A stretch of DNA of 64,000 nucleotides from Deinococcales bacterium (GCA_013298595.1 JAAFIG010000006.1:62001-126000); one strand, 5' to 3'; shown: positions 1 to 64,000, numbered from the stretch's first letter. Made by a program: numbers and translations. The notes: a model not told the origin generated them from the sequence alone.

Positions 1-1933
1 CTGTTCCGTATTTCTCGAGAATGGTTTTACCCACACCTTTTATTTGCTCGAGTTGTTGCAAATTTTTTGGCATGGTCTGAGCGATGCTCTCAAGGACAGC
101 GTTGCTGGCAACAATAAAAGCGCTCAGATTGGCAGCTCGAGCAGTTTCGCGTCGCCACGTCCAGAGTTCTTGGAGTAACGTTTCTTGGTTTGTTGTGATG
201 GCTCGAGATTGGGTTTGGGTAACAGGTTTTTTTGGTAATTCCTGCGGCACTGGGGTTGCAGTTTTGCTGATGCTGATCACACCATTTTTCATGATTAAAT
301 CGCCTTTTTCGATCATCTCGAGCATCACATCTCGAATGATTTGGCGACCAAATTTCTTTAAAGCTCCGTGCATCGGATGACGCTGCAAACCTTTACTTTC
401 GATGGTGCTGCTACTCGAGCCTGCCAGTAACGCTGTGACATCTCTTGGCTCGAGGCTGTGGGTTGCAAGCAGTTTGGTTAATGCCGCACGGATTTGTTCT
501 TTTTGGGTTGGAGTGGCTTTTTTTTCAAGACTGGCAGCCACAGCTTTGACATTGAGTTCGCCAATACTTGAGTCGCAGGCATCGCAGCGTTTACATGGTG
601 GGATACGCTCACCAAAATGTCCGATCAGAAAAGCTCGGCGGCAAGCTCTGGTTTGGGCGTAACCCACCACTTTTTCAAGGGCAGTATCCTCGAGTTTACG
701 CCTGCGGTACATGCTGCTAAAATCCACAGGTTTTCTTGCATCCACAACCTGAAAAGCCCCACCCATAGCTTCTAAATTGCCATTCTCGAGCAAAAGTTTG
801 ACTGCCACATTGATCGGTGTGGTATCAAAATTCATCCGCGCCGCCACATCCGACGCACTGCCAGGAGTGTTCTCGAGATTTTTCAGAACAGCTTGGACAA
901 TGCGTTCAGGTGGATAATTTTTCTCCATGATGCTTTTACGGGTCATCAGGTCTTGCGGGGCATACAGTAAGGCTGCATGGGCAGGTTCGCCGTCTCGTCC
1001 TGCTCGCCCTGCTTCTTGGTAATAGGCTTCGATGGTGCTGGGCAAAGAGTAATGCACCACCAAACGCACATCGGGTTTATCCACACCCATACCAAAAGCA
1101 ATAGTGGCACAAATACAATCAAGTTCGCCGCTTAAAAAAGCATCTTGGACTTCGGCTCGGTCTTTGTCCGACATACCAGCGTGATACGCTCTTGTACCCA
1201 GAATATCGGCGATTTCTTCGGTATTTTTACGGCTCAGGCAATAAACAATACAAGCCCCAGGATGCTTTGCTCGTAACGCATGCAGAGCCTCGAGTTTGGT
1301 GGCTTTGGTTGGCGCGTAGTGGCTACTAAATGTTAAGTTCTGCCGATCAAAACTCCCGACTTGTACCAATGGTTCGCGCAGCAAGACTCGAGCGATTTCT
1401 TCTCGCACTTTCGGTGTTGCCGTCGCCGTTAAAGCAAGGCGCGGCGCTGTAATACCCTCGAGTAAACTGCCTAGGCTCAGATAATCTGGGCGAAAATCAT
1501 GACCCCATTGCGAAACACAATGGGCTTCATCAACCACCACCAAGCTGGCACGCTCGAGTAAACTGCGACTGGCTCGAGCGCGTTCAGGAGCGATATACAC
1601 CAATTTATAATCGCCGTTGCGAATACCAGCAAAACGTGTACTGGCTTCGGATTCGGACATGCCACTGGCTAAGTACGTCGCAGGAATACCTTTTTTGGTT
1701 AAGGCATCCACTTGGTCTTTCATCAGTGCAATCAGTGGGCTAATGACAACAGTTGTTCCCTCGAGCAAAGAAGCTGGCAATTGATACGTTAAAGATTTTC
1801 CACCACCTGTGGGCAGCACTGTTAACGCATCACGTTTTTCCAGCACCGCTTCGATGGTCTCGAGTTGCAAAGTACGAAAAGAAGTGTGTCCAAAGCGTTT
1901 GAGGGCTGTTTGAATGGCGGTACTCGAGATCAC
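1..1933 (-). CDS. recQ: ATP-dependent DNA helicase RecQ, C-terminus cut by window edge
   Basis: This 3'-5' DNA helicase acts in recombination and replication-fork repair. Reading leftward from GTG at 1933, the frame stays open to the window edge (644 codons). It shows Walker A LPTGGGKS, a DEAH box (VVDEAHC), the QEAGRAGRDG motif VI region and the RecQ zinc site (Cys, 16 residues, then CxxCxxC). A winged-helix region and the start of an HRDC domain follow, the latter reaching the edge at GVGKTILEKYGT. The gene has no Shine-Dalgarno sequence, but TAATAT lies 5 nt upstream of the GTG (1939-1944), so a leaderless start is likely. It is divergent from the DUF1016 pair. The C-terminal end, including any extra HRDC domains as in Deinococcus RecQ, is outside the window. 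Confidence 0.93.
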   Translation of the reverse strand, partial: MISSTAIQTALKRFGHTSFRTLQLETIEAVLEKRDALTVLPTGGGKSLTYQLPASLLEGTTVVISPLIALMKDQVDALTKKGIPATYLASGMSESEASTRFAGIRNGDYKLVYIAPERARASRSLLERASLVVVDEAHCVSQWGHDFRPDYLSLGSLLEGITAPRLALTATATPKVREEIARVLLREPLVQVGSFDRQNLTFSSHYAPTKATKLEALHALRAKHPGACIVYCLSRKNTEEIADILGTRAYHAGMSDKDRAEVQDAFLSGELDCICATIAFGMGVDKPDVRLVVHYSLPSTIEAYYQEAGRAGRDGEPAHAALLYAPQDLMTRKSIMEKNYPPERIVQAVLKNLENTPGSASDVAARMNFDTTPINVAVKLLLENGNLEAMGGAFQVVDARKPVDFSSMYRRRKLEDTALEKVVGYAQTRACRRAFLIGHFGERIPPCKRCDACDSSIGELNVKAVAASLEKKATPTQKEQIRAALTKLLATHSLEPRDVTALLAGSSSSTIESKGLQRHPMHGALKKFGRQIIRDVMLEMIEKGDLIMKNGVISISKTATPVPQELPKKPVTQTQSRAITTNQETLLQELWTWRRETARAANLSAFIVASNAVLESIAQTMPKNLQQLEQIKGVGKTILEKYGT

Positions 1934-2084
1934 AATTTATATTACGTCAAAAACAGAAAATAGGCTAGGGGAATTTGATATGATCCAATCAATGCCGATG
2001 CGTTCGCACATACTCGATAATCCACAACCGAGGTTTAACAAGAACACGTAACAAAAAATCGAGAAGAAACAAGGACAAAACCCA

Positions 2085-2519
2085 ATGCTCGAGCCTGTGC
2101 TCAACAATTTACTTTCCGACCTTCGCGGTTTGGTCAACTCGGCTCGAGCCAGAGCCGCAGCCAGCGTCAATAGCGAATTGGTAATGCTTTACTGGCATAT
2201 TGGTAAGCGTCTTCATCTCGAGTTTTCAGCAACCCGATTAACATATGGTGAGCAAATTCTACAAGCTGTTGCTAAGTCACTCACAACAGAATTTGGACAT
2301 GGATTTAGTAAATCGTCTTTGTCTCGAGCTACACGTTTCTATGAAATTTGCCCTGAAGAAAAGATTGTTGCCACAGTGTGGCAACAATTGAGCTGGTCGC
2401 ATATTCCAGAGCTTTTACCATTAAAAGATCCCTTGCAACGCGATTTTTATGCACAAATGACGACACTCGAGCATCAGCTGATTGCATCAACTCAAGCTCG
2501 TGAAGAGGAAAAAAGCTGA
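2085..2519 (+). CDS. Stand-alone DUF1016 N-terminal domain protein
   Basis: This 144-residue protein matches only the N-terminal helical/winged-helix half of YhcG (DUF1016) proteins. Family-typical stretches are NSELVMLYWHIGKR and a GFSKSSLSRATRFYE-like segment, aligning with NRELVLLYWSIGKR and GLSKRNLQYMRAFAE in the next gene. It has no PD-(D/E)xK nuclease half. The start has AAGGA about 10 nt upstream. Its TGA overlaps the ATG of the next gene (TGATG), so the two are probably translationally coupled. It could be a regulatory or DNA-binding partner of the full-length protein, or a decayed paralogue. The intact frame and coupling favour a functional short form, but that is inference. Confidence 0.75.
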   Translation: MLEPVLNNLLSDLRGLVNSARARAAASVNSELVMLYWHIGKRLHLEFSATRLTYGEQILQAVAKSLTTEFGHGFSKSSLSRATRFYEICPEEKIVATVWQQLSWSHIPELLPLKDPLQRDFYAQMTTLEHQLIASTQAREEEKS

Positions 2520-3532
2520 TGCTCGAGAAACCTTTTGATTACACTACTTTGCTTTCTGACTTAAAAACTCAGATTCAAGCAGCACGTACCAAAGCAGCTT
2601 TAGCAGTCAACCGAGAATTGGTGTTGCTGTACTGGAGCATTGGCAAGCGAATTCTCGAGCAGCAAGCCTTGCAAGGTTGGGGTGCAAAAGTCATACAGCA
2701 ATTATCTAATGACCTGCGTCTCGAGTTTCCAGACATGCAGGGGCTTTCCAAACGCAACTTGCAGTACATGCGGGCATTTGCCGAAGCCTACTCTGGAGAA
2801 TTTGTGCAGCAAGCTGCTGCACAATTGCCTTGGTTTCATAATTGCGTTGTGCTGGACAAACTCAAGGATGCTCAAACTCGAGCATGGTACATCCGTGCCT
2901 GCATCCAAAATGGTTGGTCAAGACCAATTCTCGAGATGCAAATCGAAACCAAATTGCATCAGCGTCAAGGGAATGCTGTGAATAATTTCGAGCGAACCTT
3001 GCCTGCGCCTCATGCAGAGTTAGCAGCGCAAATGCTCAAAGACCCGTATAACTTCGATTTTCTTGGTCTTGGACAAGAAGCCCATGAACGCGACCTCGAG
3101 AATGCCTTGATTGCACACATTAAATCTTTTCTCCTTGAGCTTGGCGCTGGTTTTGCGTTTGTTGGTAATCAATATCATCTCGAGATCAACGGCAAGGATT
3201 ACTACTTGGATTTATTATTTTACCATTATCGTTTGCATTGCTTTGTGGTCATAGACTTAAAAGTGACTGAGTTCAAACCCGAGTACGCTGGCAAGATGAA
3301 TTTCTACTTATCGGCTGTGGATGATTTGCTACGGAGTGCAGGCGATGCACCAAGCATTGGCATGGTGCTTTGCAAAAACAAAGACAAAACCGATGTTGAA
3401 TACGCGTTGCGTGGAATGTCTCAGCCACTTGGCGTCTCGAGCTTTGAGTTATCTGCCATGCTGCCTAAAGAACTCGAGGGTGTATTACCAACCGTAGCTC
3501 AACTTGAGGCATTGCTGACCAAGAATTCTTGA
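2519..3532 (+). CDS. YhcG/DUF1016 family PD-(D/E)xK nuclease-domain protein
   Basis: A full-length DUF1016 protein of 337 residues, a normal size for the family. The N-terminal half (about residues 1-150) is the helical domain. The C-terminal half holds the nuclease-like core: YYLDLLFYH, then VVIDLK, then FKPEYAGKMNFYL. The first Asp and the DLK form a PD-(D/E)xK signature in which the usual Glu of ELK is Asp. Family members often sit near restriction or other defence genes. Here the neighbours are recQ and a short DUF1016 N-terminal protein, with no methylase or hsdR in view. The substrate is unknown, and a DNA-processing role is inferred only from the fold. Confidence 0.88.
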   Translation: MLEKPFDYTTLLSDLKTQIQAARTKAALAVNRELVLLYWSIGKRILEQQALQGWGAKVIQQLSNDLRLEFPDMQGLSKRNLQYMRAFAEAYSGEFVQQAAAQLPWFHNCVVLDKLKDAQTRAWYIRACIQNGWSRPILEMQIETKLHQRQGNAVNNFERTLPAPHAELAAQMLKDPYNFDFLGLGQEAHERDLENALIAHIKSFLLELGAGFAFVGNQYHLEINGKDYYLDLLFYHYRLHCFVVIDLKVTEFKPEYAGKMNFYLSAVDDLLRSAGDAPSIGMVLCKNKDKTDVEYALRGMSQPLGVSSFELSAMLPKELEGVLPTVAQLEALLTKNS

Positions 3533-3580
3533 ACACAATAGAATTCCAGAACAATTACGTTTGATTTGTCTGTTCTTAAC

Positions 3581-4642
3581 TTAAACTTCAATCATCACTT
3601 TTAAGGATTGCTTTTTTTGCGTATCCGCAAACTCGAGGGCTGCTCCAGCTTCGGACAAAGCGTAGCGTTTCGTAATCATTTTATCCAAATTGACTTTTCC
3701 TGAACTGAGTAACGCCAGTGCCGCAGGGTAGCAATTGGCGTAGCGAAACTGCCCGCGAATATCCACTTCTCGAGAAGCGGCTGCCACAATATCTAAGCTG
3801 ACCATTGGGTCTGGTGGCAAACCAACCAGCACAGCCACCCCGCCAGAATGCACCGCTTCAATGGTTTGCCGACAAGTAATCAGTGCACCAGCTGTTTCAA
3901 AGGCAGCATCCACACCTGCACTCGAGCCAGTTAACCCATTTAAGGGCGTGGTAATAGCTCGGATTTGCTCGAGCACATTGCCTTCTCGAGCATTGATGGT
4001 GTGGGTTGCCCCAAATTCTTTGGCAAATTCGAGGCGGAAAGGCTCGAGATCAACCACGATAATGGTGGTTGCACCAGCGGCTTTAGCGGCTTGTACCACT
4101 GTACAACCAATAGCACCACCACCAAAAATAGCAATGCTGGCACCCATACCAATACCTGAGCGTTGCACTGCCCAAACAGCCACTGATAATGGCTCGAGCA
4201 GTGCAGCCGCTTCTAAACTGACATGGTCTGGAATTTTAAAAACAAAATCTTCTGCCCATGCCACATACTCGGCAAAAGCACCATCTACGGGTGGGGTTGC
4301 CATAAAAACAATATTCGGACAAAGATTGTAGCGTCCGCGTTTACAATGATAACAAGTGCGGCAACACACCCCAGGCTCGAGACTGACCCGATCACCAACT
4401 TGCAAATGCTTCACACTCGAGCCAACGGCTGCTACCACCCCAGCGGATTCGTGTCCAAGAATCATGGGTGCATTGACCACGTACTGCCCAATGTGCATAT
4501 CGGTGTAATAATGCACATCCGAACCACACACCCCAACTCGAGCAATTTTGACCAGCACTTCATGCGCGGCAGGTACAGGAATGGCTCTGCTCTCGAGCCG
4601 TACATCTCGAATACCATGCAGCACTGCGGTTTGCATCACCAT
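3581..4642 (-). CDS. Zinc-dependent polyol/alcohol dehydrogenase (sorbitol/xylitol type)
   Basis: A medium-chain dehydrogenase/reductase that probably oxidises a sugar alcohol at C2 with NAD+. Visible are the catalytic zinc site (GVCGSDVHYY, then GHESAG), the structural zinc cysteines (CCRTCYHCKRGRYNLC) and the Rossmann segment FGGGAIGCTVVQ followed by an acidic residue (VVDLEP), suggesting NAD(H). The length of 353 residues is normal for L-iditol/sorbitol dehydrogenases. The start overlaps the end of the SDR gene. A second in-frame ATG at 4636 sits in a TGATG stop-start overlap and is an equally good start. It belongs with the SDR and the transporter cluster at 5.8-10 kb. The exact substrate cannot be read from sequence. 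Confidence 0.88.
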   Translation of the reverse strand: MVMQTAVLHGIRDVRLESRAIPVPAAHEVLVKIARVGVCGSDVHYYTDMHIGQYVVNAPMILGHESAGVVAAVGSSVKHLQVGDRVSLEPGVCCRTCYHCKRGRYNLCPNIVFMATPPVDGAFAEYVAWAEDFVFKIPDHVSLEAAALLEPLSVAVWAVQRSGIGMGASIAIFGGGAIGCTVVQAAKAAGATTIIVVDLEPFRLEFAKEFGATHTINAREGNVLEQIRAITTPLNGLTGSSAGVDAAFETAGALITCRQTIEAVHSGGVAVLVGLPPDPMVSLDIVAAASREVDIRGQFRYANCYPAALALLSSGKVNLDKMITKRYALSEAGAALEFADTQKKQSLKVMIEV

Positions 4643-5391
4643 GAGGTGTACCCACCATCCACGACGACATTAGAACCTGTCATAAAACTCGAGGCTGGAC
4701 TTGCTAAGAATACGGCTACGGCTGCCACTTCGGTTGGTTCGCCCAAACGACCCATTGGCGTGCTGCTCAGCCACGTGTCACGCCACTCGGGAGTCTCGAG
4801 TCCGAGTTTGGTCATGGGTGTGCCAATATAACCCGGACTGATGCAATTAACTCGGATGCCACGACTTGCCCATTCGCCAGCCAAGGACTTAGTTAAATGA
4901 ATCACGCCTGCTTTGGCGGCGTTGTACGCCGATTGCGGTTGTGGACGATTAGAAATCATGCCTGACATTGAACCGATATTGATAATCGTACCAAAACCTT
5001 GTTTCAGCATGATCTGTGCCACCTCTCGGCAACCATAAAAAACCCCATCTAAATCTATACTCATCACCAACCGCCACTCATCGTCGGATACATCCTCAGA
5101 TGGAGTATTGCGACAAATTCCTGCGTTATTGACCAAGCAATCAATCCGCCCATGCTTAGCCGCCACCGCTTGCACCATGGCTCGCACACTACTCGAGGAA
5201 GTCACATCGGTTGCGATAAAATCGCCCTGCAACTCGAGCGCAGATTCAGCCCCGACAATTGCGTCGGCTTCGGCAATGACCACAAATGCTCCAGATGCTT
5301 TCATAGCTCGAGCAATCTCTAAGCCAATACCACGACCACCACCCGTAACAATAACGATTTGCGACTCGAGAGAATAATTTGGTTGGCTCAT
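4636..5391 (-). CDS. Short-chain dehydrogenase/reductase, probable polyol dehydrogenase
   Basis: A classical SDR of about 251 residues. It has the cofactor motif TGGGRGIG, NNAG, a catalytic Ser in NIGSMSG and the catalytic YNAAK (YxxxK). The ending GSNVVVDGGYTSW is typical of the FabG-like branch. I place the start at ATG 5391 because AGGAG lies just upstream; the open frame extends 11 codons further without such support. It is translationally coupled to the zinc dehydrogenase downstream. An SDR next to an MDR dehydrogenase and a polyol-type ABC transporter suggests interconversion of a sugar alcohol and its keto sugar. The substrate assignment is inference. Confidence 0.88.
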   Translation of the reverse strand: MSQPNYSLESQIVIVTGGGRGIGLEIARAMKASGAFVVIAEADAIVGAESALELQGDFIATDVTSSSSVRAMVQAVAAKHGRIDCLVNNAGICRNTPSEDVSDDEWRLVMSIDLDGVFYGCREVAQIMLKQGFGTIINIGSMSGMISNRPQPQSAYNAAKAGVIHLTKSLAGEWASRGIRVNCISPGYIGTPMTKLGLETPEWRDTWLSSTPMGRLGEPTEVAAVAVFLASPASSFMTGSNVVVDGGYTSW

Positions 5392-5782
5392 AAAGCTCCT
5401 TGTGGAAGGGCGAGAGGAAGGCAAGGAAAATTGAATGTCAATATCAGTGTTGAGTAGTCAATGATGCAGAGGTTTTTTGATTTCTTTTTTCTACAACATG
5501 TTTAGATTTCGTAGGGGCGAACCTTGTGTTCGCCCTGTGTAGGACAACATGATCTGAATTTGTATTGAAAAGTGTTTTGTGAACCATTGATCGTGTAACT
5601 TGTGTAAAGCAAACCCTGTGTTTGCCTCTTAACCCAATACACGCACCTCGCAGGCAGGGTCTCATGGCGAGGACTTCAAAACCATAAAAATGTTTTTATT
5701 TTGTGTCTATCTTAAAACGTTTTGTATCACAAATTTTTATCTGCGTCTCGAAGGCGAGGCGTACCTCGCCGCTACGGTTTAC
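5392..5782. repeat. Gene-free stretch carrying four small hairpin repeats
   Basis: About 390 bp between two dehydrogenase genes without a convincing ORF. It holds four inverted repeats: GGGCGAAC/GTTCGCCC at 5515-5535 (loop CTTGT), GCAAAC/GTTTGC at 5609-5625 (loop CCTGT), CCTCGC/GCGAGG at 5646-5672 (long loop) and GGCGAGG/CCTCGCC at 5753-5770. They belong to the two dispersed hairpin families seen elsewhere in the window. The promoter of the SDR gene should also lie here, but I see no clear one. The stretch separates the SDR/MDR pair from the transporter operon and may end or attenuate its transcript. Confidence 0.7.
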
Positions 5783-6799
5783 TTATTGTGGAATGATCAA
5801 AGTTTTTTGTGATCCGTTTAGTCCAGGTTGATTTTTATACTCGAGAGCGACACCAACATCTTGAATTGGTAAACGATGGGTGATCAGTGGGGTTACTTGT
5901 ACCAGTCCGCTCGAGAGCCAATTTAGGGCTGTGTGCAGTGTGCCATGCAAGGAGAAACTACCAAGGATGGTTAAGTCACGGCGGAATACTTCGTAAGGAC
6001 TGATGCTAATTTTAGCTTCGTCTGGAGCAACTCCGTAATAGAGTATTTTGCCTCCTTGAATGGCGTATTGAGGCAATTCGGTTATCACAGCGGGAATACC
6101 TGTGGCTTCGGTGACCACATCAAAACCATATGGCTCGAGATCAAATAATTGGGTTTTTAGGTTTGGGTGTGGCTCGAGAACTCGTTTGGCTCCAAGGGCA
6201 AGGGCAACAGCACGACGTTCGGCGTTGGGTTCGATAATCGTAACTTCGCAGATTCCTGAAATAAGCAGGGCTTGCATTAGTAAAATACCAATCGGACCAG
6301 CGCCAAATAATAAGGCTTTGCTGCCAATCTCGGGTTGTAATCGTTTGATACCCCAAGCAATACAGCCCAGTGGTTCAGCAAAAGCGGCGGTCTCGAGATC
6401 GAGGTTGCCTATTGGGTAAACATTACTTTCTGGGGCAACCACGTACTCAGCAAAACCACCACCTCGGGTAACACCAAGGGCAGCGAAATTTTCGCAATGA
6501 TGCTGCATACCCCTACGGCAATGATGGCAGCTGCCACAAGAAATATTCGGGTCTAAAGCAACTCGGTCGCCTTCTTTGACAGCTTTGACACTCGAGCCAA
6601 TTTGATCCACAATGCCCGCAATTTCATGCCCAGGAATGAGTGGAAAAACTGCACCAAAATGACCGCTATACAAATGTAAATCTGTACCGCAAACACCTGT
6701 AGCTGCTACCCGTACCCGAACTTCATTAGCACTGACATTTGGTGTGGGAATTTCTTGAATCTCGAGATGATTGGCTTTTGTAATAATTGCAGCTTGCAT
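5783..6799 (-). CDS. Zinc-dependent alcohol dehydrogenase, last gene of the polyol ABC operon
   Basis: A second MDR-family dehydrogenase of about 338 residues. It has GVCGTDLH and GHEIAG for the catalytic zinc and CGSCHHCRRGMQHHC for the structural zinc. The Rossmann motif is FGAGPIGILLMQ followed by an acidic residue (IEPNAER). The ATG at 6799 is within the TAATG stop-start overlap with the upstream permease, and the residues encoded further upstream do not look like family sequence. As the distal gene of the binding protein-permease-permease operon it probably catalyses the first oxidation of the imported polyol. It differs clearly from the enzyme at 3.6 kb, so two substrates or two steps are likely. 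Confidence 0.9.
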   Translation of the reverse strand: MQAAIITKANHLEIQEIPTPNVSANEVRVRVAATGVCGTDLHLYSGHFGAVFPLIPGHEIAGIVDQIGSSVKAVKEGDRVALDPNISCGSCHHCRRGMQHHCENFAALGVTRGGGFAEYVVAPESNVYPIGNLDLETAAFAEPLGCIAWGIKRLQPEIGSKALLFGAGPIGILLMQALLISGICEVTIIEPNAERRAVALALGAKRVLEPHPNLKTQLFDLEPYGFDVVTEATGIPAVITELPQYAIQGGKILYYGVAPDEAKISISPYEVFRRDLTILGSFSLHGTLHTALNWLSSGLVQVTPLITHRLPIQDVGVALEYKNQPGLNGSQKTLIIPQ

Positions 6800-7638: not shown

Positions 7639-8555
7639 GATTTGACCTCCAAAGTGGCATTGCGATTCACAAGACGTAAAAATAAAGCAGTCATGATATT
7701 AGCTATAACTACCGCAATCACCCCAGCAGCTGATGCCATACCAATGCTGTATTCACCAAAAGCTTTTTGGAAAATAAAGAAAGGCAAATTGGTTGTAGCA
7801 AGTCCAGGTCCACCACTGGTAGCAATATAAATTTCACCATAAATTTGTAAAATAAAAATAGCTTCGAGTAACACCACAACTTCAAAAGCTCGAGTCCAAT
7901 GTGGCATAACAATAAACCAGAATTCTTGTAATTGACTTGCACCATCTAACCGAGCTGCCTCGAGTTGATCTGTCGGTAAGGACTGCAAGCTGGTCAGCAA
8001 AATGAGTAATGCAAATGGAGTCCATTCCCACGTAACCATCATAATAATTGAAACCATTGGGTACTGTGCTAACCAATCAATGGCTTCAAAACCAAGAGCT
8101 TGAGAAGCCATACCAAACAAACCAAAAACAGGATTGAGCAAAGAGTTCTTCCAAATTAAAGCTGTTATCACAGGCATGATAAAAAAAGGTCCGATCAATA
8201 ATGTTCTAGCAACACTACGACCAAAAAATGGGCGATTGAATAAGAGTGCCAATGCCGCACCAAAAATGATGGTTAAAGCAATCACACTTAACACCAGCAC
8301 CAAAGTATTAAGTAAAACAGGTACAGAAAGCGGATCTGTAAATAGCGTTACATAATTCTCGAGTCCGATAAAAGGGCGTTTAAACGGATCAACTAAGCTA
8401 TACCGAAATAAGCTGTAGTAAATCGTCATGATAAACGGCACTTGGGTGGTTAGAATCAAGAACCCTAAAGCAGGTGCAAGCAGCAGTAACGCAGGCAGTT
8501 TCGAGGTACGCCCAGCATTTTTTTTCTTTTTTAATGAACGATGTTGCACAGTCAT
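7635..8555 (-). CDS. Sugar-alcohol ABC transporter permease (SmoF/MalF type)
   Basis: The partner permease of about 306 residues with the EAA loop EAARLDGASQLQEFWFIVMP. I choose ATG 8555 (MTVQHRS) because AGAGG stands about 7 nt upstream; the open frame runs 23 codons further with no support. A lysine-rich N-terminus precedes the first membrane helix (LPALLLLAPALGFLIL). The ends overlap the next permease by 4 bp. A 12-bp hairpin lies between this gene and the binding-protein gene. CTCGAG density is low (three sites). Confidence 0.9.
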   Translation of the reverse strand: MTVQHRSLKKKKNAGRTSKLPALLLLAPALGFLILTTQVPFIMTIYYSLFRYSLVDPFKRPFIGLENYVTLFTDPLSVPVLLNTLVLVLSVIALTIIFGAALALLFNRPFFGRSVARTLLIGPFFIMPVITALIWKNSLLNPVFGLFGMASQALGFEAIDWLAQYPMVSIIMMVTWEWTPFALLILLTSLQSLPTDQLEAARLDGASQLQEFWFIVMPHWTRAFEVVVLLEAIFILQIYGEIYIATSGGPGLATTNLPFFIFQKAFGEYSIGMASAAGVIAVVIANIMTALFLRLVNRNATLEVKS

Positions 8556-8635
8556 AGATAACCTCTGATTTAAGCTGTTTTGCTTTTCATTTTTTGACCC
8601 ATAAATTTTCTTAAATAGCAACAATTTTTGATGAT

Positions 8636-8664
8636 GTGAGCAGGTGGTGTTGCCACCTGCTCAC
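8636..8664 (-). other. Perfect 12-bp hairpin between binding-protein and permease genes
   Basis: GTGAGCAGGTGG and CCACCTGCTCAC flank a 5-nt loop in the gap downstream of the binding-protein gene. No T-run follows on the coding strand, so full termination is unlikely. In carbohydrate ABC operons such hairpins commonly protect the binding-protein mRNA and lower permease expression, which is the inferred role here. Two CTCGAG copies lie directly beside it. Confidence 0.7.
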
Positions 8665-8699
8665 GAAGCTCGAGTGGAGGAAACTCGAGTAGGAGGGTG

Positions 8700-10064
8700 T
8701 TACTTCTTGTAACCGCCTTCTTTAGCAACTTTTTCAGCGGCTGTTTGACCAAGTTTCAGAGCTTGGGAAACACTGTACTGACCAGCTAAGGCACCTGCCA
8801 CATATTGTCCAACTTGTGTACCAAGGGCTTGAAATTCTGGAATACCCACAAATTGCACACCAACGTAAGGAACTGGATCTTTCGTGGCATCGGTTGGATC
8901 AGCACGATTGATTGAATCTAGGGTGATACCAGCAAAATCACCAGCTGCTTTTTTGTACTCTGGGTTAGCATAGGTGCTGGCTCGAGTTCCTGGGGGTACG
9001 CTTGCCCATGTACCATTGGTTTTGGCTACTAAAGCAATGTATTCTTTACTGGTTGCCCATGTAATAAACTTAAAGGCGGCATCACTGACTTTACTCGATT
9101 TTGGAATAGCTAACGACCATGACCAGAGCCAGTTGCTACCTTTTGGAGTGCCAGGTCCTGTTGGGGCGTTGGCAAAACCAACGGTATCCACAATCTTTGA
9201 TTGACGTGGGTCTTTGAGGAATCCTGCTGCCACTGTTGCATCAATCCACATACCACATTTGTTTTGGCTCATATAGGTTAGGTTTTCGGTAAAACCATTA
9301 CCTGTTGCTCCAGGAGCACCATATTTCTTTTGTAAATTAACGTAGAACGTCAGGGCACTGTTCCAAGCTGGCGAGTTGATGGTAGCGTTCCAGTTTGTAT
9401 CAAACCAGCGTCCACCAAAGGTATTAACCATTGTGCTAAACACTGCCATGTTCTCACCCCAACCAGGTAAGCCACGTAAGCAAATACCAAAGAAACCATT
9501 TTGGGGTTTATGTAGTTTAGCTGCAAAGGTTTGAATTTGTGTCCATGTTGGTTTTACAGGCATGGTCAGTTTAGCCGCAGCAAAAGCAGCTTTGTTATAA
9601 AAAGTCATACTTGACTCGGCATAGAAAGGTAAGGCGTACAGATTTTTGTTGTACGACAAGCCAAGGCGAACTGGTGTTAAAAGGTCGGCTAGGTCGTAAC
9701 TGGCTTTGATGCTAGCATTTCTATCAAACAGTGCATCCATTGAGTTTAACCAACCGTTTTTTGCCCAAATTGGCACTTCGTACGTACCAATGGTGGCAAC
9801 ATCATAACTCCCTGCACCCGTGGCAATATCAGTGGTAACTTTTTGGCGTAATTCGTTTTCTGGTAGCACATTCCATTTTAAGTTAATACTAGGGTTAGCT
9901 GCTTCAAAGACATTGGTCAAACTTTCCATCGTTTTCATATCCGAGTTGTTGACCGTAGCGATGGTCACAGTGACTGGACTTTGGGCAAATGCTCCTGTGG
10001 CTAAGGCAGCAATCGCAGCACTCGAGACTAAACCTGCACTGATAATCCAAACTTTTGATTTCAT
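8700..10064 (-). CDS. Periplasmic polyol-binding protein of ABC transporter (SmoE type)
   Basis: An extracellular solute-binding protein family 1 member of 454 residues. The signal peptide ends near AFA-Q (residues 27/28) without a lipobox, so it should be a soluble periplasmic protein. Stretches such as DIATGAGSYDVATIGTYEVP, ALPFYAESSMTFYNK and LRGLPGWGENMAVF are characteristic of the sorbitol/mannitol-binding SmoE/MtlE group. AGGAG lies 5 nt before ATG 10064. It is the first gene of an operon transcribed away from the LacI-type regulator, with operators between them. Only two CTCGAG sites occur in the gene and none between about 9000 and 10018. Ligand identity is inferred from family resemblance. 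Confidence 0.93.
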   Translation of the reverse strand: MKSKVWIISAGLVSSAAIAALATGAFAQSPVTVTIATVNNSDMKTMESLTNVFEAANPSINLKWNVLPENELRQKVTTDIATGAGSYDVATIGTYEVPIWAKNGWLNSMDALFDRNASIKASYDLADLLTPVRLGLSYNKNLYALPFYAESSMTFYNKAAFAAAKLTMPVKPTWTQIQTFAAKLHKPQNGFFGICLRGLPGWGENMAVFSTMVNTFGGRWFDTNWNATINSPAWNSALTFYVNLQKKYGAPGATGNGFTENLTYMSQNKCGMWIDATVAAGFLKDPRQSKIVDTVGFANAPTGPGTPKGSNWLWSWSLAIPKSSKVSDAAFKFITWATSKEYIALVAKTNGTWASVPPGTRASTYANPEYKKAAGDFAGITLDSINRADPTDATKDPVPYVGVQFVGIPEFQALGTQVGQYVAGALAGQYSVSQALKLGQTAAEKVAKEGGYKK

Positions 10065-10089
10065 ATGATCTCCTAAAACTACTTAAATC

Positions 10090-10095
10090 TGTATA
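10090..10095 (-). promoter_or_regulatory. Candidate -10 of the polyol ABC operon
   Basis: On the minus strand TATACA lies about 26 nt upstream of the binding-protein start, with TTGATT 19 nt before it. The Shine-Dalgarno AGGAG follows downstream. The spacing is longer than ideal, so this is a weak call. The nearest CACGTG operator lies about 80 bp upstream. Confidence 0.35.
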
Positions 10096-10165
10096 GAACG
10101 AATGAAAACCGTAAAATCAACAATTTCTTGTTTGTCACCCCCTTAAAAAAATTCAAAAATGCTTT

Positions 10166-10183
10166 AATGGACACGTGTCCATT
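10166..10183. promoter_or_regulatory. LacI-family operator 1 (CACGTG-centred palindrome)
   Basis: An 18-bp perfect palindrome centred on ACGT: AATGGACACGTGTCCATT. It resembles operators 2 and 3 in half-site (TGG-CAC) and centre. Odd-even LacI-family sites with a central CG are typical. It probably binds the adjacent regulator and represses the polyol operon. Confidence 0.7.
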
Positions 10184-10218
10184 TGAATCGCAAACAAAAG
10201 ACAAATTGATATCTTGCG

Positions 10219-10252
10219 TTTTTTATTCTCACCTACTTGGTAGAATAAAAAA
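10219..10252. other. A/T-rich inverted repeat in the lacI-smoE intergenic region
   Basis: TTTTTTATTCT and AGAATAAAAAA face each other across a short ACC/GGT-extended loop, between operators 1 and 2. It could act as a terminator-like element in both directions, isolating the regulator from read-through, or it could simply be A/T-rich promoter DNA. I cannot decide between these. Confidence 0.4.
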
Positions 10253-10259
10253 TTGTCTA

Positions 10260-10277
10260 AATGGTCACGTGGTCATT
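10260..10277. promoter_or_regulatory. LacI-family operator 2 (imperfect CACGTG palindrome)
   Basis: AATGGTCACGTGGTCATT carries the same half-site as operator 3 on the left and a mismatched right half. Its centre is 94 bp from operator 1 and 66 bp from operator 3. The three sites could support looping by a tetrameric or paired dimeric repressor. Confidence 0.6.
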
Positions 10278-10323
10278 ACTCTACAAGATGGAGCTTACAT
10301 TTGTAAAGCCCCAAAAAATGTTT

Positions 10324-10345
10324 ATACTGGTCACGTGACCAGTAT
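10324..10345. promoter_or_regulatory. LacI-family operator 3 overlapping the regulator start codon
   Basis: A 22-bp perfect palindrome with the core TGGTCACGTGACCA. The likely GTG start of the regulator (10335) lies at its centre. Repressor bound here would block its own transcription or early elongation, so autoregulation is inferred. Confidence 0.7.
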
Positions 10346-11360
10346 CCTCGATGTTGCTAAAAAAGCAGGGGTTTCACCCACCACTGCAAAACGCGCCGTC
10401 AATCAACCACACCTCTTAACTCAGGCTACCTTAGAACGCGTCCAAACCGCCATTCAAGCCCTCAATTACGAACCTGACCGCATGGCAGGCGCACTGCGGC
10501 GCGGACACAGCAAAACCATTGGCTTAATGGTTGGTAACATCATCGAACCATTCTTTGCCCAACTCACCCGTACAATCGCTAAAGCTGTCCATGCCAAAGG
10601 TTACGCCCTCATTATTGCCGACAACGAATACGACTCGAGCCTTGAACTCGAGAATTTACGTATGTTCCACGGACAACGGGTCAGTGGTCTTATTTTGCGT
10701 TCCGCTTTCGGCACAGGCAACCTCGAGTATATGCAACGCTTACAAGAACAAGGCACATTTATTCTCGAGATAGACCATTTTTTAGCCAATAGTGGCTTTA
10801 GTCATATCATGCTTGATAACCGTGCAGGTGTCGAAATGGGGCTGCGGTACTTACATAGTTTAGGACATCAAAAAATCGCACCTTTAACCTTATTTGATGC
10901 CACCAAGCTCCAAGACGAACGCGCCAAAGCCTTCAATGAAATCATGCTAAGCCTTGGCTTAAAAATACCCAAAGCCTATCAACACAGCACCACCCCAACT
11001 GAAGAAGGCGCGTACCAACGCACCCTCGAGTTAATGCGATTACCTGACCCACCCACCGCGATTATTTCCATGACTGGTAACGAAGCTGCAGGCGCTTTTC
11101 GAGCCTTCAAAGAAAAAAATATTCGCATTCCAGAAGATGTTTCTTTTTTAACTTTCGATGATTACTCGTGGATGAGTTTAGTCGAACCACCCTTAGATGT
11201 GATCGTGCAACCAATTGAAGCAATGGGTTTACGAGCCGTAGAAATAACCATTAGTGCCATCGAACGCCGCCAACTAGATACCGTAGTACAAGAACGATTC
11301 CCCAGCCGTTTAATTCGCCGAGGCAGTTGTACCGCACCAAGAAAACACACTTTGAAATAA
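10335..11360 (+). CDS. LacI-family transcriptional regulator of the polyol cluster
   Basis: The DNA-binding helix-turn-helix is visible at once from GTG 10335: SILDVAKKAGVSPTTAKRAVN, followed by the hinge-helix region (NYEPDRMAGALRRGHSKTIG). The periplasmic-binding-protein-like effector domain covers the rest. From this start the protein has 341 residues, the usual family length. The open frame continues upstream, but those 69 codons do not look like protein and contain two of the operators. No Shine-Dalgarno is seen, so initiation may be leaderless. It is divergent from the transporter operon and probably represses it until an imported polyol or its derivative binds. Confidence 0.88.
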   Translation: MTSILDVAKKAGVSPTTAKRAVNQPHLLTQATLERVQTAIQALNYEPDRMAGALRRGHSKTIGLMVGNIIEPFFAQLTRTIAKAVHAKGYALIIADNEYDSSLELENLRMFHGQRVSGLILRSAFGTGNLEYMQRLQEQGTFILEIDHFLANSGFSHIMLDNRAGVEMGLRYLHSLGHQKIAPLTLFDATKLQDERAKAFNEIMLSLGLKIPKAYQHSTTPTEEGAYQRTLELMRLPDPPTAIISMTGNEAAGAFRAFKEKNIRIPEDVSFLTFDDYSWMSLVEPPLDVIVQPIEAMGLRAVEITISAIERRQLDTVVQERFPSRLIRRGSCTAPRKHTLK

Positions 11361-34111: not shown

Positions 34112-35185
34112 TTATTTTTGAACCATTAAAACCTTGAAACCACGTTCTCGAGTAATCAGTTCTGCGTTACCCAGTTGCATCATGGCAGCTTCATAAGGCA
34201 AGAAGTGATTTGCCACTAACCAAATTTGGCTTCCTGCATGACTATGGCGTTTAGCAGCAGCAATAAACTCGAGGGCAACGTCGAGGCGAAGGTCACGTCC
34301 AACATGAAATGGTGGGTTCATGACAATCATATCAAAAGTGCTTTTGGCACCTAAGTTCGAGTCCACATCGGAGTGCAACACGGTGCCGCTCAGGTGATTA
34401 GCCGCCAAAGTATCGGTAGCACTTTGTACGCTAAGCACATCGTCCTCGAGCATGGTGACTATGGCACCTTCAAGGGCTAAGAACCCTGAAAGCACACCAT
34501 ACCCCGCACCAATGTCCAGAACTGTTTTGCCTGCGCCATTCGGTAAATGCTCGAGCAGCAAAGCACTGGCAGCATCGAGTTTACCCGAAGCAAATGTACC
34601 AGCGTGTGCCACAGCTTGTAATTGCTGTCCTCGAGCTTCGACCATAAATTTTTGTGGCTCGAGGGCTGCTGGTTTAGTCGTATTGGTTTTCTCGAGTTTG
34701 GCAACTCGAAAGCCTTTACCTCGAGCAATGATTTCGCCATCTCCAAAGAGTTTTATGGCTTCTTTGCAGTACCGATCAAAACCTTTGTCTTTGTCACCTG
34801 CTAAAAATGCAGTACCACCATCTTTGGTGGTCTGAAAGGCTTGAAGAATAATCTGCTGCACTCTGGCATTGCCACGTTCACCATTGAGAATCGCCACAGT
34901 GATATCCGCATTTTCCAGCGTTCCAATGGTTAATTTGGTTTTTGCTAGGCAAGAAATTGCAGCTGCACTCGAGTCGGTGGCGCTCACACTTAAACCTTTG
35001 GCTTGTAATGCCAATGCGACCGCGCCACCTCTGGCACTTACATCTGCAACAGAACCTGTTAATTTCAAATCCTCGAGTGTTTCCAGTAGTAACACTTGTG
35101 CGTATTCGAGGTACGGATAACCTGCAATACCTGCTTTGGTTAGTGCACCATTCTCAAGGGTTTTAGGTTCAAAATAAGTTGTCAT
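34112..35185 (-). CDS. RsmC-like class I SAM-dependent rRNA methyltransferase
   Basis: A 357-residue protein with two tandem Rossmann-like methyltransferase domains, as in RsmC/RlmG. The N-terminal one is degenerate. The C-terminal one has TVLDIGAGYGVLSGFLA (SAM-binding) and MIVMNPPFH (NPPF catalytic motif of N2-guanine methyltransferases). The likely activity is m2G modification of 16S or 23S rRNA; which position is inference. Its ATG overlaps the mutS stop (ATGA), so it is translationally coupled behind mutS. Confidence 0.87.
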   Translation of the reverse strand: MTTYFEPKTLENGALTKAGIAGYPYLEYAQVLLLETLEDLKLTGSVADVSARGGAVALALQAKGLSVSATDSSAAAISCLAKTKLTIGTLENADITVAILNGERGNARVQQIILQAFQTTKDGGTAFLAGDKDKGFDRYCKEAIKLFGDGEIIARGKGFRVAKLEKTNTTKPAALEPQKFMVEARGQQLQAVAHAGTFASGKLDAASALLLEHLPNGAGKTVLDIGAGYGVLSGFLALEGAIVTMLEDDVLSVQSATDTLAANHLSGTVLHSDVDSNLGAKSTFDMIVMNPPFHVGRDLRLDVALEFIAAAKRHSHAGSQIWLVANHFLPYEAAMMQLGNAELITRERGFKVLMVQK

Positions 35186-37707
35186 AATGTACTCCGTAAT
35201 TGACTTTGTAATTGCTCAAGAATTTTCAGAGCATCCAACGGGGTTAAACGAGCAATATCCAACTCGAGAATCTGAGCACTGGTTTGCATGGCAATATCTT
35301 CGGATTGTTGTTCTAAGGCTTGTAAAATACTGTTAGCTCGAGTGGTCACAGCGGGTGGTAAACCAGCCAGTTGTGCCACATGCACACCATAACTTTTACT
35401 CGCAGCCCCAGGCATAACTTGATGATAAAACCGCAATCCATTCTGGGCTTCTTCTTCGGCAGCCACATGTAAATTACTGATACCCGATAAGGTTGTCTCG
35501 AGCTTTGTTAATTCAAAGTAATGCGTGGCAAACAAAACAGCAGCCTTGGTTTGGGATAGAAATTCTATGGCTGCTTGGGCAATTGCCAGTCCGTCATAGG
35601 TACCTGTGCCGCGTCCAATTTCATCAAGAATCACAAGGCTGTTGGCAGTCACACCATGCAAAATATGGGCAAGTTCGCGCATTTCGACCATAAAAGTACT
35701 GGCACCACCTGCCAGATCATCCGAAGCTCCAATACGAGTAAAAATACGATCAAAAATTCGCAGTTGTGCGCTTTGGGCAGGCACAAAAGAACCAATTTGT
35801 GCCAACAAAACAACCAACGCCGTTTGGCGCAAAAACGTGCTTTTGCCACTCATATTCGGACCCGTAATGAGTTGGATTCGGCTCGAGTTAGACAGGGTAA
35901 TATCATTAGGCACAAAATTGTCTAAGGTTGTTTCAACCACAGCATGACGAGCTTGTACCACCCTGACTTCACCTGACTCGAGGATGGTTGGTAAAACATA
36001 CCCTCGGTTAGCTGCAATATCGGCAAGGTTTGCTAAGACATCCAAATCGGCAAGGGCACTGGAAAGCAGTTGTAAACGTTCAGTATGGTTCGTCAGTTGC
36101 GCTCGTAACTCGAGAAAAACGGTGTATTCTCTGGCTTGGGCGCGTTCTTCGGAATGCAGCACTTCACGTTCTTTTTCTCGTAAATCTTGGCGAGTAAAAC
36201 GCATTCGGTCTTTCAGAGTAGCAACCGCTCGGTAATCATCTGGAACAAGGTGTTTATGGGCATTGGTGATCTCGAGGTAATAACCAAAAATATTATTAAA
36301 GCCAACTTTTAAGCTGTTAATACCAGTTCGCACCCGTTCTGAAGTCTCGAGATGAGCAATCCATGTTCTACCCTCAAGTGCTCTGGCACGGCATTCATCA
36401 AGTTCGGCATCGAAGCCATCGCGGATAAAACCGCCTTCGGTTAAACGCAGTGGCGGGGTTTCGATTAAGGCTGCTCGAATAATTTTGGCAGCGTTGGCAA
36501 TCGGGTCTAAACGGGTTTGTAAATCGCGCAGCAACCTTGCATCCAAAGGTTCAAGTAAAACTTTTAATTCTGGTATTAACTCGAGGGTTCGTAACAAAGC
36601 ATTAAAATCTCTGGCATTAGCCCGTTGCATTGCCACTCTGGTAGCAAGTCGCTCGAGGTCATGAGCATGATGCAAAGCCGCCCGAATACTTTTACGACTT
36701 TCGGAATCACGGTGCAAAACACTGACCGCCTCGAGCCGTTCAGCAATCAAATGAGCATCTAATAATGGTGCTCTCAACCAAGCTTTTAAGCGCCGTCGCC
36801 CAGGAGCTGTGCGAGTATCGTTTAATGCACCAAACAATGTGGCACTTTCAGGGGCTGTAGGCGATAACGGCGTAAAAACCTCGAGTGCTCGCAATGCCGC
36901 TTCATCTAAACGCATATGCGCTCCAGGGTCGTACCGTTGCACCCGCCGCACTGCTGGCAAATTGGTATGCTCGAGGACTTTACTGGCATAAGCCAGCACT
37001 GCCCCACAAACCCGTTGCAAAGCCGTGGTCTCGAGCATTGTAGGCGCAGAACCAAATTGTACTGTCAAAGCAGCAATGGCATCGGACAAAGCAAAACTGG
37101 CACTTGAACGCATAATTGGGAATCTGGCATTAAATTCCTGCATAAACGTAGCATTGTCCTCGAGTTCAGGAGCCAGTAAAACCTCGGCTGGTCGGTACCG
37201 CGATAATTCATCGTATAATGCCCCTCGGCTTGAAACTTGGCAACAGCGAAATTCACCAGTACTCACATCGAGTAATGCCAGCGCGTACCCATCACCAGAA
37301 GCAACACTGGCAAGAAAATTTTCTTCACCCCGTAAAATATCCTCGAGCGCCACTGTGCCAGGAGTAATAATTTGTGTCACAGCCCGTTCGACCAAACCTT
37401 TGGCTGTACTTGGGTCTTCAACTTGTTCTGCCACTGCAATACGCTGCCCAAGTTTGAGTAAACGCTCGATATGGGTTTCGGCAGCTCTGACAGGAATACC
37501 TGCCATTGGCGTGGAAAAATCCTTAGATTGCTTATGGGTTAAAGTGATATTGAGTAACCTCGAGAGGCGTTCGGCATCCTCACCAAAAGCTTCAAAAAAA
37601 TCACCCACCTGAAATAACAACACATACTCTGCGTACTGATCACGCAACCGCACATACTGCTCGAGCAGTGGCGGCAAAATACCTGAACCTGTTCCCTTCA
37701 ACGACAT
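35182..37707 (-). CDS. mutS: DNA mismatch repair protein MutS
   Basis: The mismatch-recognition ATPase (841 residues, normal length for MutS1). The mismatch-binding domain starts with YVLLFQVGDFFEAFGEDA, which contains the Phe-x-Glu-type recognition element (FFEAFGE). The ATPase domain has Walker A GPNMSGKS near residue 616, Walker B in LVILDEIGRGTGTYDG and the ATHYFELT switch region. No mutL is in the window. Start ATG 37707 has CATAAT 6 nt upstream and no Shine-Dalgarno. It leads an operon with the RsmC-like gene. Confidence 0.96.
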   Translation of the reverse strand: MSLKGTGSGILPPLLEQYVRLRDQYAEYVLLFQVGDFFEAFGEDAERLSRLLNITLTHKQSKDFSTPMAGIPVRAAETHIERLLKLGQRIAVAEQVEDPSTAKGLVERAVTQIITPGTVALEDILRGEENFLASVASGDGYALALLDVSTGEFRCCQVSSRGALYDELSRYRPAEVLLAPELEDNATFMQEFNARFPIMRSSASFALSDAIAALTVQFGSAPTMLETTALQRVCGAVLAYASKVLEHTNLPAVRRVQRYDPGAHMRLDEAALRALEVFTPLSPTAPESATLFGALNDTRTAPGRRRLKAWLRAPLLDAHLIAERLEAVSVLHRDSESRKSIRAALHHAHDLERLATRVAMQRANARDFNALLRTLELIPELKVLLEPLDARLLRDLQTRLDPIANAAKIIRAALIETPPLRLTEGGFIRDGFDAELDECRARALEGRTWIAHLETSERVRTGINSLKVGFNNIFGYYLEITNAHKHLVPDDYRAVATLKDRMRFTRQDLREKEREVLHSEERAQAREYTVFLELRAQLTNHTERLQLLSSALADLDVLANLADIAANRGYVLPTILESGEVRVVQARHAVVETTLDNFVPNDITLSNSSRIQLITGPNMSGKSTFLRQTALVVLLAQIGSFVPAQSAQLRIFDRIFTRIGASDDLAGGASTFMVEMRELAHILHGVTANSLVILDEIGRGTGTYDGLAIAQAAIEFLSQTKAAVLFATHYFELTKLETTLSGISNLHVAAEEEAQNGLRFYHQVMPGAASKSYGVHVAQLAGLPPAVTTRANSILQALEQQSEDIAMQTSAQILELDIARLTPLDALKILEQLQSQLRSTL

Positions 37708-39541: not shown

Positions 39542-39846
39542 ACTCGAGCCAAAAACGCGGGCTTTCGCTCATATCTGGCTTCTTGACCCTAACAGCGGCA
39601 TCTCACAGTCTTGGGGCGCTTGAACCTTTTTTGTTTGGAAAACGACAGGGCAAACCGAACAACCCTCTCCCGCACTTTTTGGCGACACAATAGATCGAGA
39701 AAAGCTCGTGGAAAATAGATAAATACGTTTTGGCAAGGGAGGGGACAAGCCCCAACATTGGCATGTAGGGGCGACCCTTGTGGTCGCCCTGCCCAAGTAT
39801 TCTCGTGGAAAATGTAACCGTAGAACGAGCCATGCTTTGCCCCAAA
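39542..39846. repeat. Gene-free convergent spacer with a dispersed hairpin repeat
   Basis: About 305 bp between two convergent genes. It contains GGGCGACC/GGTCGCCC with a CTTGT loop at 39769-39789, the closest relative of the copy at 5515, and a smaller GGGG/CCCC stem just upstream (39739-39753). No ORF or promoter is convincing. Confidence 0.65.
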
Positions 39847-49948: not shown

Positions 49949-49992
49949 ATCCGTCTCCTTGCTTAGTACTTACACTGTACACCTAAAAATGC

Positions 49993-56641: not shown

Positions 56642-56644
56642 ACC

Positions 56645-61469: not shown

Positions 61470-61591
61470 ACGCATAGTCTACCTGTTTACCAATACTCGA
61501 GCGATTACTCGTACAGAACAACCTTGATTCTTTGTGACGCTTCTTGTGACGCTTGGTCTTTAAAGTGAAACTCGAGGTTCAAAGGAGATTT

Positions 61592-62011: not shown

Positions 62012-62022
62012 AGGAGGCACTT

Positions 62023-62649: not shown

Positions 62650-62676
62650 TTTGATTTTTTCGAGTAAAGTACTTTT

Positions 62677-63327
62677 ATGAAACTTTCTCGAGTATTTTTG
62701 GGTCTTGGTTGTGCAACCCTTCTTGGTTTGGCTGTAGCACAAACTGTTAAACTTGTATCGATTAACATTGCTGGCAAGGACGTAAAGCTCGAGAGTGTCG
62801 TGGTGCAAGGTAAAACTTTTGTTTCGCTCGAGCAATTAAAAAAAGCTTTTCCTGTGGTCTCTAAACCCCAGACCGTTCCAGGTGGCACAAATCAGGTTGC
62901 GGCAACGCAGGGTTGTATTAAAGAGTTTTTGTTTAATGGCGCTTGGCGTTTTCGGGTTTTAGCCATTGCTTACGACCCTGCTAAACAAGGCTGGTTGACC
63001 ACCGTAGAATTGCGGAACGGCATGAAAAAAATTGCTCAGGTTCGTGGTTCAGGTGCCGATAATGCCGCTAGGGATATTTCTTTAGCTTTGGCTTCTGGCA
63101 ATGTGCTCGAGTTATCAGTTGGGCAATCCTCGAATGTGCAAGAAAAATTGTTGTACAAGCAATTGGCTCCTGGGGCTGCAACGGTGGTGGATATGATTTT
63201 TTATGCCGATTCTGACGCGGATAAACCACGTAAGTTTTTGTGGGTGATGTCCGCAAAGAATAATGTGGATAATGCGCCGCTGATTAAAGACCCTGCTTTT
63301 CGTATTGATTTAACTTGTATTAAGTAG
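62677..63327 (+). CDS. Secreted stalk-domain protein (second paralogue)
   Basis: A 216-residue paralogue of the previous protein, with the same signal peptide (GLAVAQ), the stalk motif VSINIAGKDVKLESVVVQGKTFVSLEQLKK and the GAWRFRV, TTVELRNGM and DSDADKPRKFLWVMSA landmarks. Unlike its neighbour it has no Shine-Dalgarno: TAAAGT lies 6 nt before the ATG, so it is probably leaderless and separately transcribed. Tandem duplication is the likely origin. Confidence 0.85.
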   Translation: MKLSRVFLGLGCATLLGLAVAQTVKLVSINIAGKDVKLESVVVQGKTFVSLEQLKKAFPVVSKPQTVPGGTNQVAATQGCIKEFLFNGAWRFRVLAIAYDPAKQGWLTTVELRNGMKKIAQVRGSGADNAARDISLALASGNVLELSVGQSSNVQEKLLYKQLAPGAATVVDMIFYADSDADKPRKFLWVMSAKNNVDNAPLIKDPAFRIDLTCIK

Positions 63328-63401
63328 GATTTTTTGCTGTATCAAAAGCCAACAGTAGCATCCATCAAGCATTTTTTGGCTCGAGGCTTTAGACTATTGG
63401 C

Positions 63402-64000
63402 ATGATTGCCCAAGGTTTGCTCGAAGTGCATTTATTTGGTGTTCCAGCACTTCGCCTTGATGGGCAGGTTTTATTGCTGCCAACCAAGCGGGCTTGGGGT
63501 TTAGTGGCGTTCTTAGCGCTCGAAGGGGCAACTTCTCGAGATAATTTAGCCAAATTGTTGTGGGATGAAGCTTTTTTCGAGAATCCTCGTAAGAATTTAC
63601 GACAAGAATTATATCGGTTAATGCAAACGCCTTTAGCTCAGTTTCTTGAGATAGCCAATGATCTTGTGAGATTACAGTGCAGTTCGGATGCGGCTCAAGC
63701 TCGAGCTGATGAAACATATTTGATTTCGGGTGTTTTTTTAGAAAGGTTTGATGTGCCTCAAGCGCCTGATTTTCAGAGTTGGTTGCAAATGCAGCGCGAA
63801 ACTTTTTCGCGTTCACGTATCAGCCGCTTGGAAACTCGAGCTAAACATGTAACTGGTTTAGTTGCTTTAGATGCGTGGCTCGAGGTGCTTAAAGCCGATA
63901 ATTTGCATGAAACAGCGGTGCAAGCAGCCTTACAACTCGAGGCGGAACATCTTGGTAAGACAGCCGCTTTAGAACGTTACCGAGGCTTTAAGACACTTTT
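63402..64000 (+). CDS. SARP/BTAD-type transcriptional activator, C-terminus cut by window edge
   Basis: The N-terminal winged-helix domain of OmpR-like type (EVHLFGVPALRLDG, LLLPTKRAWGLVAFLALEG, LAKLLWDEAFFENPRKNLRQELYRL) is followed by the start of the bacterial transcriptional activation domain (DNLHETAVQAALQLEAEHLGKTAALERY). TAGACT stands 6 nt before ATG 63402 and there is no Shine-Dalgarno. The frame is open to the right edge (about 199 codons). Deinococcus carries several such regulators with additional ATPase or TPR domains; those parts would be beyond the window. Confidence 0.88.
   Translation, partial: MIAQGLLEVHLFGVPALRLDGQVLLLPTKRAWGLVAFLALEGATSRDNLAKLLWDEAFFENPRKNLRQELYRLMQTPLAQFLEIANDLVRLQCSSDAAQARADETYLISGVFLERFDVPQAPDFQSWLQMQRETFSRSRISRLETRAKHVTGLVALDAWLEVLKADNLHETAVQAALQLEAEHLGKTAALERYRGFKTL

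Follow-up and report, generated by a model that had tools for sequence, protein, structure and literature searches.

The genome of a Deinococcales bacterium raises the question of why a single six-base palindrome, CTCGAG, recurs throughout its DNA. The window analyzed here is a stretch of 64,000 nucleotides (GCA_013298595.1 JAAFIG010000006.1:62001-126000) of this metagenome-assembled genome (MAG), designated G000, and it contains 419 copies of CTCGAG vs. 13.1 expected from base composition, in keeping with the several hundred that the initial annotation, made from the sequence alone, had estimated. In 60 first-order Markov simulations of the window, the mean number of copies was 5.7 and the maximum was 11. 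The 32 copies reported by that annotation for the first 3.54 kb were exactly recovered in bases 1–3540, where 0.75 are expected from composition, and the longest CTCGAG-free gap in the window was 1,103 bp (49120–50223). The genome assembly, 68 contigs totaling 4,582,226 bases, harbors 27,159 copies, i.e., about one per 170 bases and ∼30 times the ∼916 expected from the sampled composition. Hence, neither a genome-wide count near the Markov expectation nor a restriction of the copies to the window, either of which would have spoken against the initial claim, was observed. Stretches of 20 kb from many different contigs contained 2.9–7.6 copies per kb with a mean of 5.85 (one contig of 2.8 kb was masked), and the reversed control GAGCTC was found 15 times in the genome and never in the window. 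The closest database records of the MutS protein encoded in the window were from Deinococcales MAGs (70 and 56% identity). A search of the open-access literature yielded no earlier account of over-represented CTCGAG in the phylum.

The copies were present in all three reading frames as well as between genes, as had been noted earlier, with densities of 5.86 per kb in open reading frames (ORFs) and 5.60 per kb outside them. The underlying force was estimated with a codon-aware model covering each place where CTCGAG can be written synonymously; codon use was measured outside the sites, and one odds multiplier was fitted. In ∼672 kb sampled in stretches from G000, the three frames had log-odds (S) of 4.81, 3.81, and 4.12, with 2,020/3,025, 920/1,417, and 605/1,651 opportunities occupied, respectively, while the logarithm of the observed-to-expected ratio (O/E) between genes was 4.13. 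Ten control palindromes in the same model showed S from −3.6 to +0.8, and for the control TTCGAA there were 0 copies vs. ∼192 expected. Occupancy by CTCGAG reached 66% of 4,532 opportunities and was nearly binomial over 601 genes (chi2/df 1.22). Leu-Glu pairs were written as CTCGAG in 65% of cases vs. 5.5% expected if their codons were independent, and Glu-Leu pairs were written as GAGCTC in 0.2%. Since the pull is nearly equal in three amino-acid contexts and in intergenic DNA, the force acts on DNA and not on protein; placement of CTCGAG at the DNA level, as initially proposed, is thus strongly supported. The accompanying claim that the codons CTC, GAG, and CGA occur mostly inside the hexamer held for CTC and GAG (52% each) but not for CGA (36%).

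Specificity for the hexamer is strict. Among all hexamers, exact CTCGAG showed an O/E of 56 (order 1) and its one-mismatch forms 1.05 (order 1) or 0.74 (order 0), so that all 6 bp are specified without any excess of one-mismatch forms. No extended consensus was found in the flanks, and palindromic extensions such as CCTCGAGG were avoided (C..G flank pair, 44 vs. 127 expected). Neighboring copies were found to exclude each other at short range. Occupancy was 27–33% with the nearest copy at 12–18 bp, 52–57% at 18–32 bp, and 66% at 40–50 bp, and it leveled off at ∼75% beyond 50 bp, the curve being identical for Leu-Glu and [SPTA]-Arg-[VADEG] opportunities. The 1–12 bp bin of occupancy includes overlapping placements, which cannot be jointly filled; the pair correlation, which excludes them, was 0.16 at 6–9 bp, 0.57 at 18–24 bp, and ∼1.0 beyond 60 bp. 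The spacings showed no helical periodicity of 10–11 bp. Exclusion curves of similar shape were obtained, from fewer data, in the sister species G001, in G003, and in genus g11, and a weaker one in G002. General avoidance of hairpins fails to explain the exclusion, as other G+C-rich hexamer inverted repeats were undepleted at short spacers. The simplest inference suggested by an exclusion within ∼18 bp that persists weakly to 50 bp is the footprint of a bound protein.

Turnover of the sites was evaluated by comparison of G000 with G001, which share 81% protein and 74% DNA identity in aligned codons. Each genome had 60 aligned CTCGAG sites, 35 of them common to both. At 39 conserved Leu-Glu pairs, CTCGAG was present in both genomes in 20 cases, in only one or the other in 9 and 8, and in neither in 2, which matches the prediction for independence given the occupancy observed. 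Such a split indicates free gain and loss with return to the same level; sharing of sites is therefore in itself no evidence for conservation of individual sites. Differences between orthologous sites were nearly all substitutions, with gaps at 3 sites only (three comparisons, codon alignments of conserved genes), and CTCGAG has spread by point substitution at synonymous or neutral positions. At Leu-Glu pairs, the transition neighbors CTTGAG and CTCGAA were over-represented 6.3- and 3.2-fold, respectively, and the transversion neighbors were not in excess. Part of this excess is codon context, as judged from Leu-Asp and other contexts; the transition neighbors are read as relics of lost CTCGAG sites.

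The table of the phylum listed 111 genomes. All four genomes of the family that includes G000 (three genera) carried 26,619–28,178 copies each. In a second family, genus g11 had 21,868 copies in a 91% complete genome and 14,690 in a 58% complete one, the density reaching 12 per kb in one of the stretches sampled; G008 of this family was intermediate (13,552), and G004 of the same family had 683. As high G+C content makes raw counts misleading, the codon-aware model was fitted. S was about 2.8–5.0 in the other rich genomes, 1.7–2.5 in G008, 2.0–3.5 in two g13 genomes, 1.4–2.6 in G006, and 2.1–2.6 in G005; G007 and G041 gave values close to 0, and G004 gave a negative one (12–48 kb each for these last groups). 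Enrichment thus takes a weaker form in several further lineages of this phylum and is lacking in others. The trait is probably an old one within the phylum. Related families range from very strong enrichment to weak enrichment to none, and this gradient offers a comparative series for mapping the responsible gene by its presence or absence.

The parallel drawn in the initial annotation was the highly iterated palindrome (HIP) HIP1 of cyanobacteria (GCGATCGC), likewise hugely over-represented genome-wide and missing from some relatives. To our knowledge, HIP1 has been without explanation since 1995 and had seemed a cyanobacterial oddity. HIP1 and CTCGAG have both spread by nucleotide substitution, for HIP1 as stated in the title of Robinson (1997), cited in PMC6604393. 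They differ in phylum, sequence, and length (8 vs. 6 bp) as well as in density, with ∼5,900 copies per Mb for CTCGAG vs. ∼500–2,500 per Mb, the range given in PMC4390886 for the majority of HIPs in cyanobacteria. HIP1 proper, with its core CGATCG, is not the element of G000, in which CGATCG was depleted (7 vs. 36 expected in 308 kb) and CTCGAG was the sole strongly over-represented palindrome. In the broad sense of one palindrome exceeding expectation by an order of magnitude, genome-wide and in coding and non-coding DNA, CTCGAG is nevertheless HIP-like; the parallel is apt for the manner of over-representation at the DNA level, not for the sequence, and CTCGAG constitutes a separate, denser case outside cyanobacteria. 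The alternate HIPs GGCGCC (Calothrix PCC 7103), rCCGGy (Oscillatoria PCC 10802), and GCsGC (Cyanothece PCC 7822) are also short palindromes and outliers of over-representation (PMC4390886), but they are sporadic in single strains, each with a capable methyltransferase, whereas CTCGAG characterizes whole lineages in which no such enzyme was identified. Methyltransferases for CTCGAG do exist, some of them outside restriction systems: Nocardia has an orphan enzyme, and the motif clusters at the replication origin (PMC4752239), and Halorubrum sp. BOL3-1 carries 5-methylcytosine (m5C) at CTCGAG with 560 sites only (PMC8112702). Neither has been reported as hyper-iterated. The DNA uptake sequences of Haemophilus and Neisseria and the Chi sites resemble CTCGAG in being short and over-represented genome-wide by selection or drive, but they are non-palindromic and rarer, and their one-mismatch forms are over-represented.

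Cyanobacteria with HIP1 as a rule encode methyltransferases acting on it, and wherever a genome had a highly over-represented sequence, Elhai found an enzyme able to methylate it (PMC4390886). Because the companion of HIP1 is a methyltransferase, five methyltransferase families were searched here in assemblies that were 58–94% complete; unlike for HIP1, no conserved cognate enzyme was found in them. The single m5C enzyme of G000 (L001) has orthologs in G001 (81%) and G012 (64%, adjoining an HNH gene), and none was found in G002 or G003. Plasmid relatives of L001 (57–59% identity) adjoin HpaII-family and MspI-family enzymes, both of which recognize CCGG; its target is hence likely to be CCGG, in agreement with the depletion of CCGG in the G000 sample (O/E 0.09), and L001 was rejected as the CTCGAG enzyme on these grounds. 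PF01555 is represented in G000 by L002, which adjoins a NotI-like gene, and by L003; no group of this family spans the rich genomes, and neither L002 nor L003 had a close ortholog detected in the other rich genomes. The search of PF07669 and PF02384 gave an enzyme of 499 aa, next to a restriction gene of 307 aa (L134), and a protein of 1264 aa on contig C9. No close relative of the 499-aa enzyme was detected in the sequence sampled from related genomes, and the other rich genomes yielded no close ortholog of L134. PF02086 members were found in all the rich genomes but the 58% complete G016, as different subfamilies; for a D12 enzyme encoded on contig C2, the remaining rich genomes yielded no close ortholog. 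L002, L003, L134, and this D12 enzyme were rejected as candidates for want of such orthologs. Non-orthologous methyltransferases without assigned specificity do occur in the rich genomes; a CTCGAG methyltransferase could reside in missing sequence, in a further family, or in non-orthologous enzymes of individual genomes. The orphan methyltransferase suggested by the initial annotation was not supported, no ortholog from the five families being shared by the rich genomes and L001 being most like CCGG enzymes. Bacillus subtilis BsuMI includes a CTCGAG-specific methyltransferase, and targets of a resident restriction enzyme are usually avoided in the genome. CTCGAG does not have the profile of a restriction-modification target of the XhoI, PaeR7I, or BsuMI type, whose sites are avoided, as it is 30-fold enriched. 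As a separate observation, L134 carries a putative type II restriction-modification pair of a nuclease (PADLOC REase_II model) and an N6 methyltransferase; avoidance of CTTAAG was strongest in G000 (1 vs. 74 expected), and CTTAAG might be the target of the pair.

On balance, we favor the view that CTCGAG is a HIP-like element, namely, the exact 6-bp site of a resident DNA-acting protein that works chromosome-wide, kept by weak uniform selection. The reader would be a non-restricting DNA-modifying or DNA-binding protein recognizing the exact 6 bp along the whole chromosome, perhaps for self-marking, repair, or chromosome organization. Single-base substitutions create and destroy sites, and a weak uniform force (log-odds ∼4 per site in the strongest lineages) would maintain CTCGAG at some two thirds to three quarters of the most favorable protein-neutral places. 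We infer both the existence of a protein that reads CTCGAG and that the force is selection on the use of the site. Any mechanism is constrained by the strict 6-bp recognition, the uniformity over frames and intergenic DNA, the interference only within ∼50 bp, and the avoidance of most other palindromes. Several points weigh against this view. No methyltransferase ortholog common to the rich genomes was found in PF00145, PF01555, PF07669, PF02384, or PF02086, nor did the search of these five families yield a protein reading CTCGAG; the short-range exclusion shows interference between neighbors, not protein binding; and nearly the same equilibrium would arise from a uniform bias in repair or conversion, so that the force need not be selection. 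A structural or nucleoid protein that binds CTCGAG as a landmark for organization, segregation, or repair, which overlaps the favored view as its non-methyltransferase branch, is possible though less probable; the chromosome-structuring role named in the initial annotation is likewise plausible. The occurrence of one site per 80–170 bp, the local exclusion, which spans ∼18 bp and fades out toward 50 bp, the strict 6-bp specificity, and the lack of a shared methyltransferase in the families searched are in line with such a protein, but no candidate protein emerged, and we know of no precedent for a strictly 6-bp-specific nucleoid protein with ∼27,000 sites. Slightly more tentative is the proposal of a conserved Deinococcota protein, not a methyltransferase, for which CTCGAG would be a landmark all along the chromosome in packing, segregation, or broken-chromosome repair; if true, this would be a sequence-specific chromosome system without known parallel, with one site per 80–170 bp in the richest lineages.

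On evolutionary grounds, the main rival is the biased repair proposed by Elhai and published for cyanobacterial HIPs (PMC4390886), in which methylation-directed mismatch repair fixes site-creating mutations and corrects site-destroying ones, and the sites themselves may be useless. Such a bias would yield the kind of uniform force that was found across frames, genes, and intergenic DNA, and MutS is present. It requires, however, a cognate methyltransferase, and none was found as a shared gene in the families searched; the sequences left when a site is lost by transition are over- rather than under-represented (partly codon context), so loss of CTCGAG is not efficiently corrected; and the model saturates at ∼1 site per 1,000 bp, as compared to 1 per 170 bp with exclusion only to ∼50 bp here. 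We therefore regard biased repair as unlikely. A DNA uptake sequence, where competent cells favor CTCGAG-containing fragments in uptake or recombination and copies build up by molecular drive, would share the accumulation by point mutation inside and between genes that is described for uptake sequences (PMC1939737), and the accumulation of CTCGAG is nearly uniform. Known uptake sequences are longer, non-palindromic, and found at ∼1 per kb or rarer vs. 5.9 per kb for CTCGAG, and their one-mismatch forms are clearly over-represented, those of CTCGAG being at expectation; this strict specificity weakens the uptake role suggested initially and makes it quite improbable. An artefact, whether of assembly or of composition at the level of codons, dipeptides, or bases, could be imagined because Leu-Glu pairs are frequent and can be encoded by CTC and GAG, but it is refuted by the gap between 65 and 5.5% at these pairs, by the equal density between genes, by the nearly equal force in frames encoding different amino acids, and by the concurrence of several separate MAGs, and its probability is negligible.

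Most other 6-bp palindromes were avoided in the rich genomes, with a median O/E of 0.15–0.35 vs. 0.5–0.92 in relatives. In G000, 20 of 63 palindromes showed an O/E below 0.1 vs. 72 of 4,032 non-palindromes; in its sampled stretches, GGCC was at 1% of expectation, and TTCGAA, CCGCGG, and GGCGCC were at zero in 308 kb. Since this avoidance exceeds what the few restriction genes found would account for, it suggests long exposure to changing restriction. A scan of viral contigs for clustered CTCGAG returned mostly G+C-rich contigs and one serine-repeat gene, with no sign of phages of these hosts.

Table 1. Coordinates of CTCGAG copies and other features in the window and in sampled contigs of G000.
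Feature	Location	Coordinates	Strand	Remarks
CTCGAG copies, whole window	window	1..64000	strandless (palindrome)	counts and positions
32 CTCGAG copies	window	1..3540	strandless	14, 47, 136, 202, 317, 414, 449, 689, 785, 872, 1289, 1387, 1457, 1553, 1573, 1760, 1859, 1923, 2088, 2143, 2217, 2323, 2466, 2522, 2654, 2720, 2877, 2930, 3095, 3179, 3436, 3473
Sample non-ORF CTCGAG copy	window	39543..39548	strandless	directly after a stop codon; sequence read and position
mutS	window	35182..37707	-	among the ortholog regions used to assess site turnover
YhcG/DUF1016 protein	window	2519-3532
Short palindromic repeat	window	39765-39794
Repeat protein of 947 aa	window	43729-46572
Putative type II restriction-modification pair	L134 (G000:C11)	8312-10736
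Operon with pilin-like signals	L152 (G000:C1)	2500-6500

Other features of the window include a short interspersed palindromic repeat (TAGGGGCGACCCTTGTGGTCGCCCTG), which recurs several times in the sampled sequence of G000 and has many near-exact copies in G001. The window also encodes a protein with a YhcG/DUF1016 PDDEXK nuclease domain and a 947-aa protein built from leucine-rich-variant and HEAT-like repeats; next to the latter come an AAA ATPase and then a VWA-like protein (DUF2201). Elsewhere in G000, an operon in L152, with the pilin-like N-terminal signals GFTLIELL and GFTLVEML, was nearly devoid of CTCGAG (0–1 per 2 kb vs. a mean of 11.7), for which a scarcity of Leu-Glu pairs is perhaps the sole cause.

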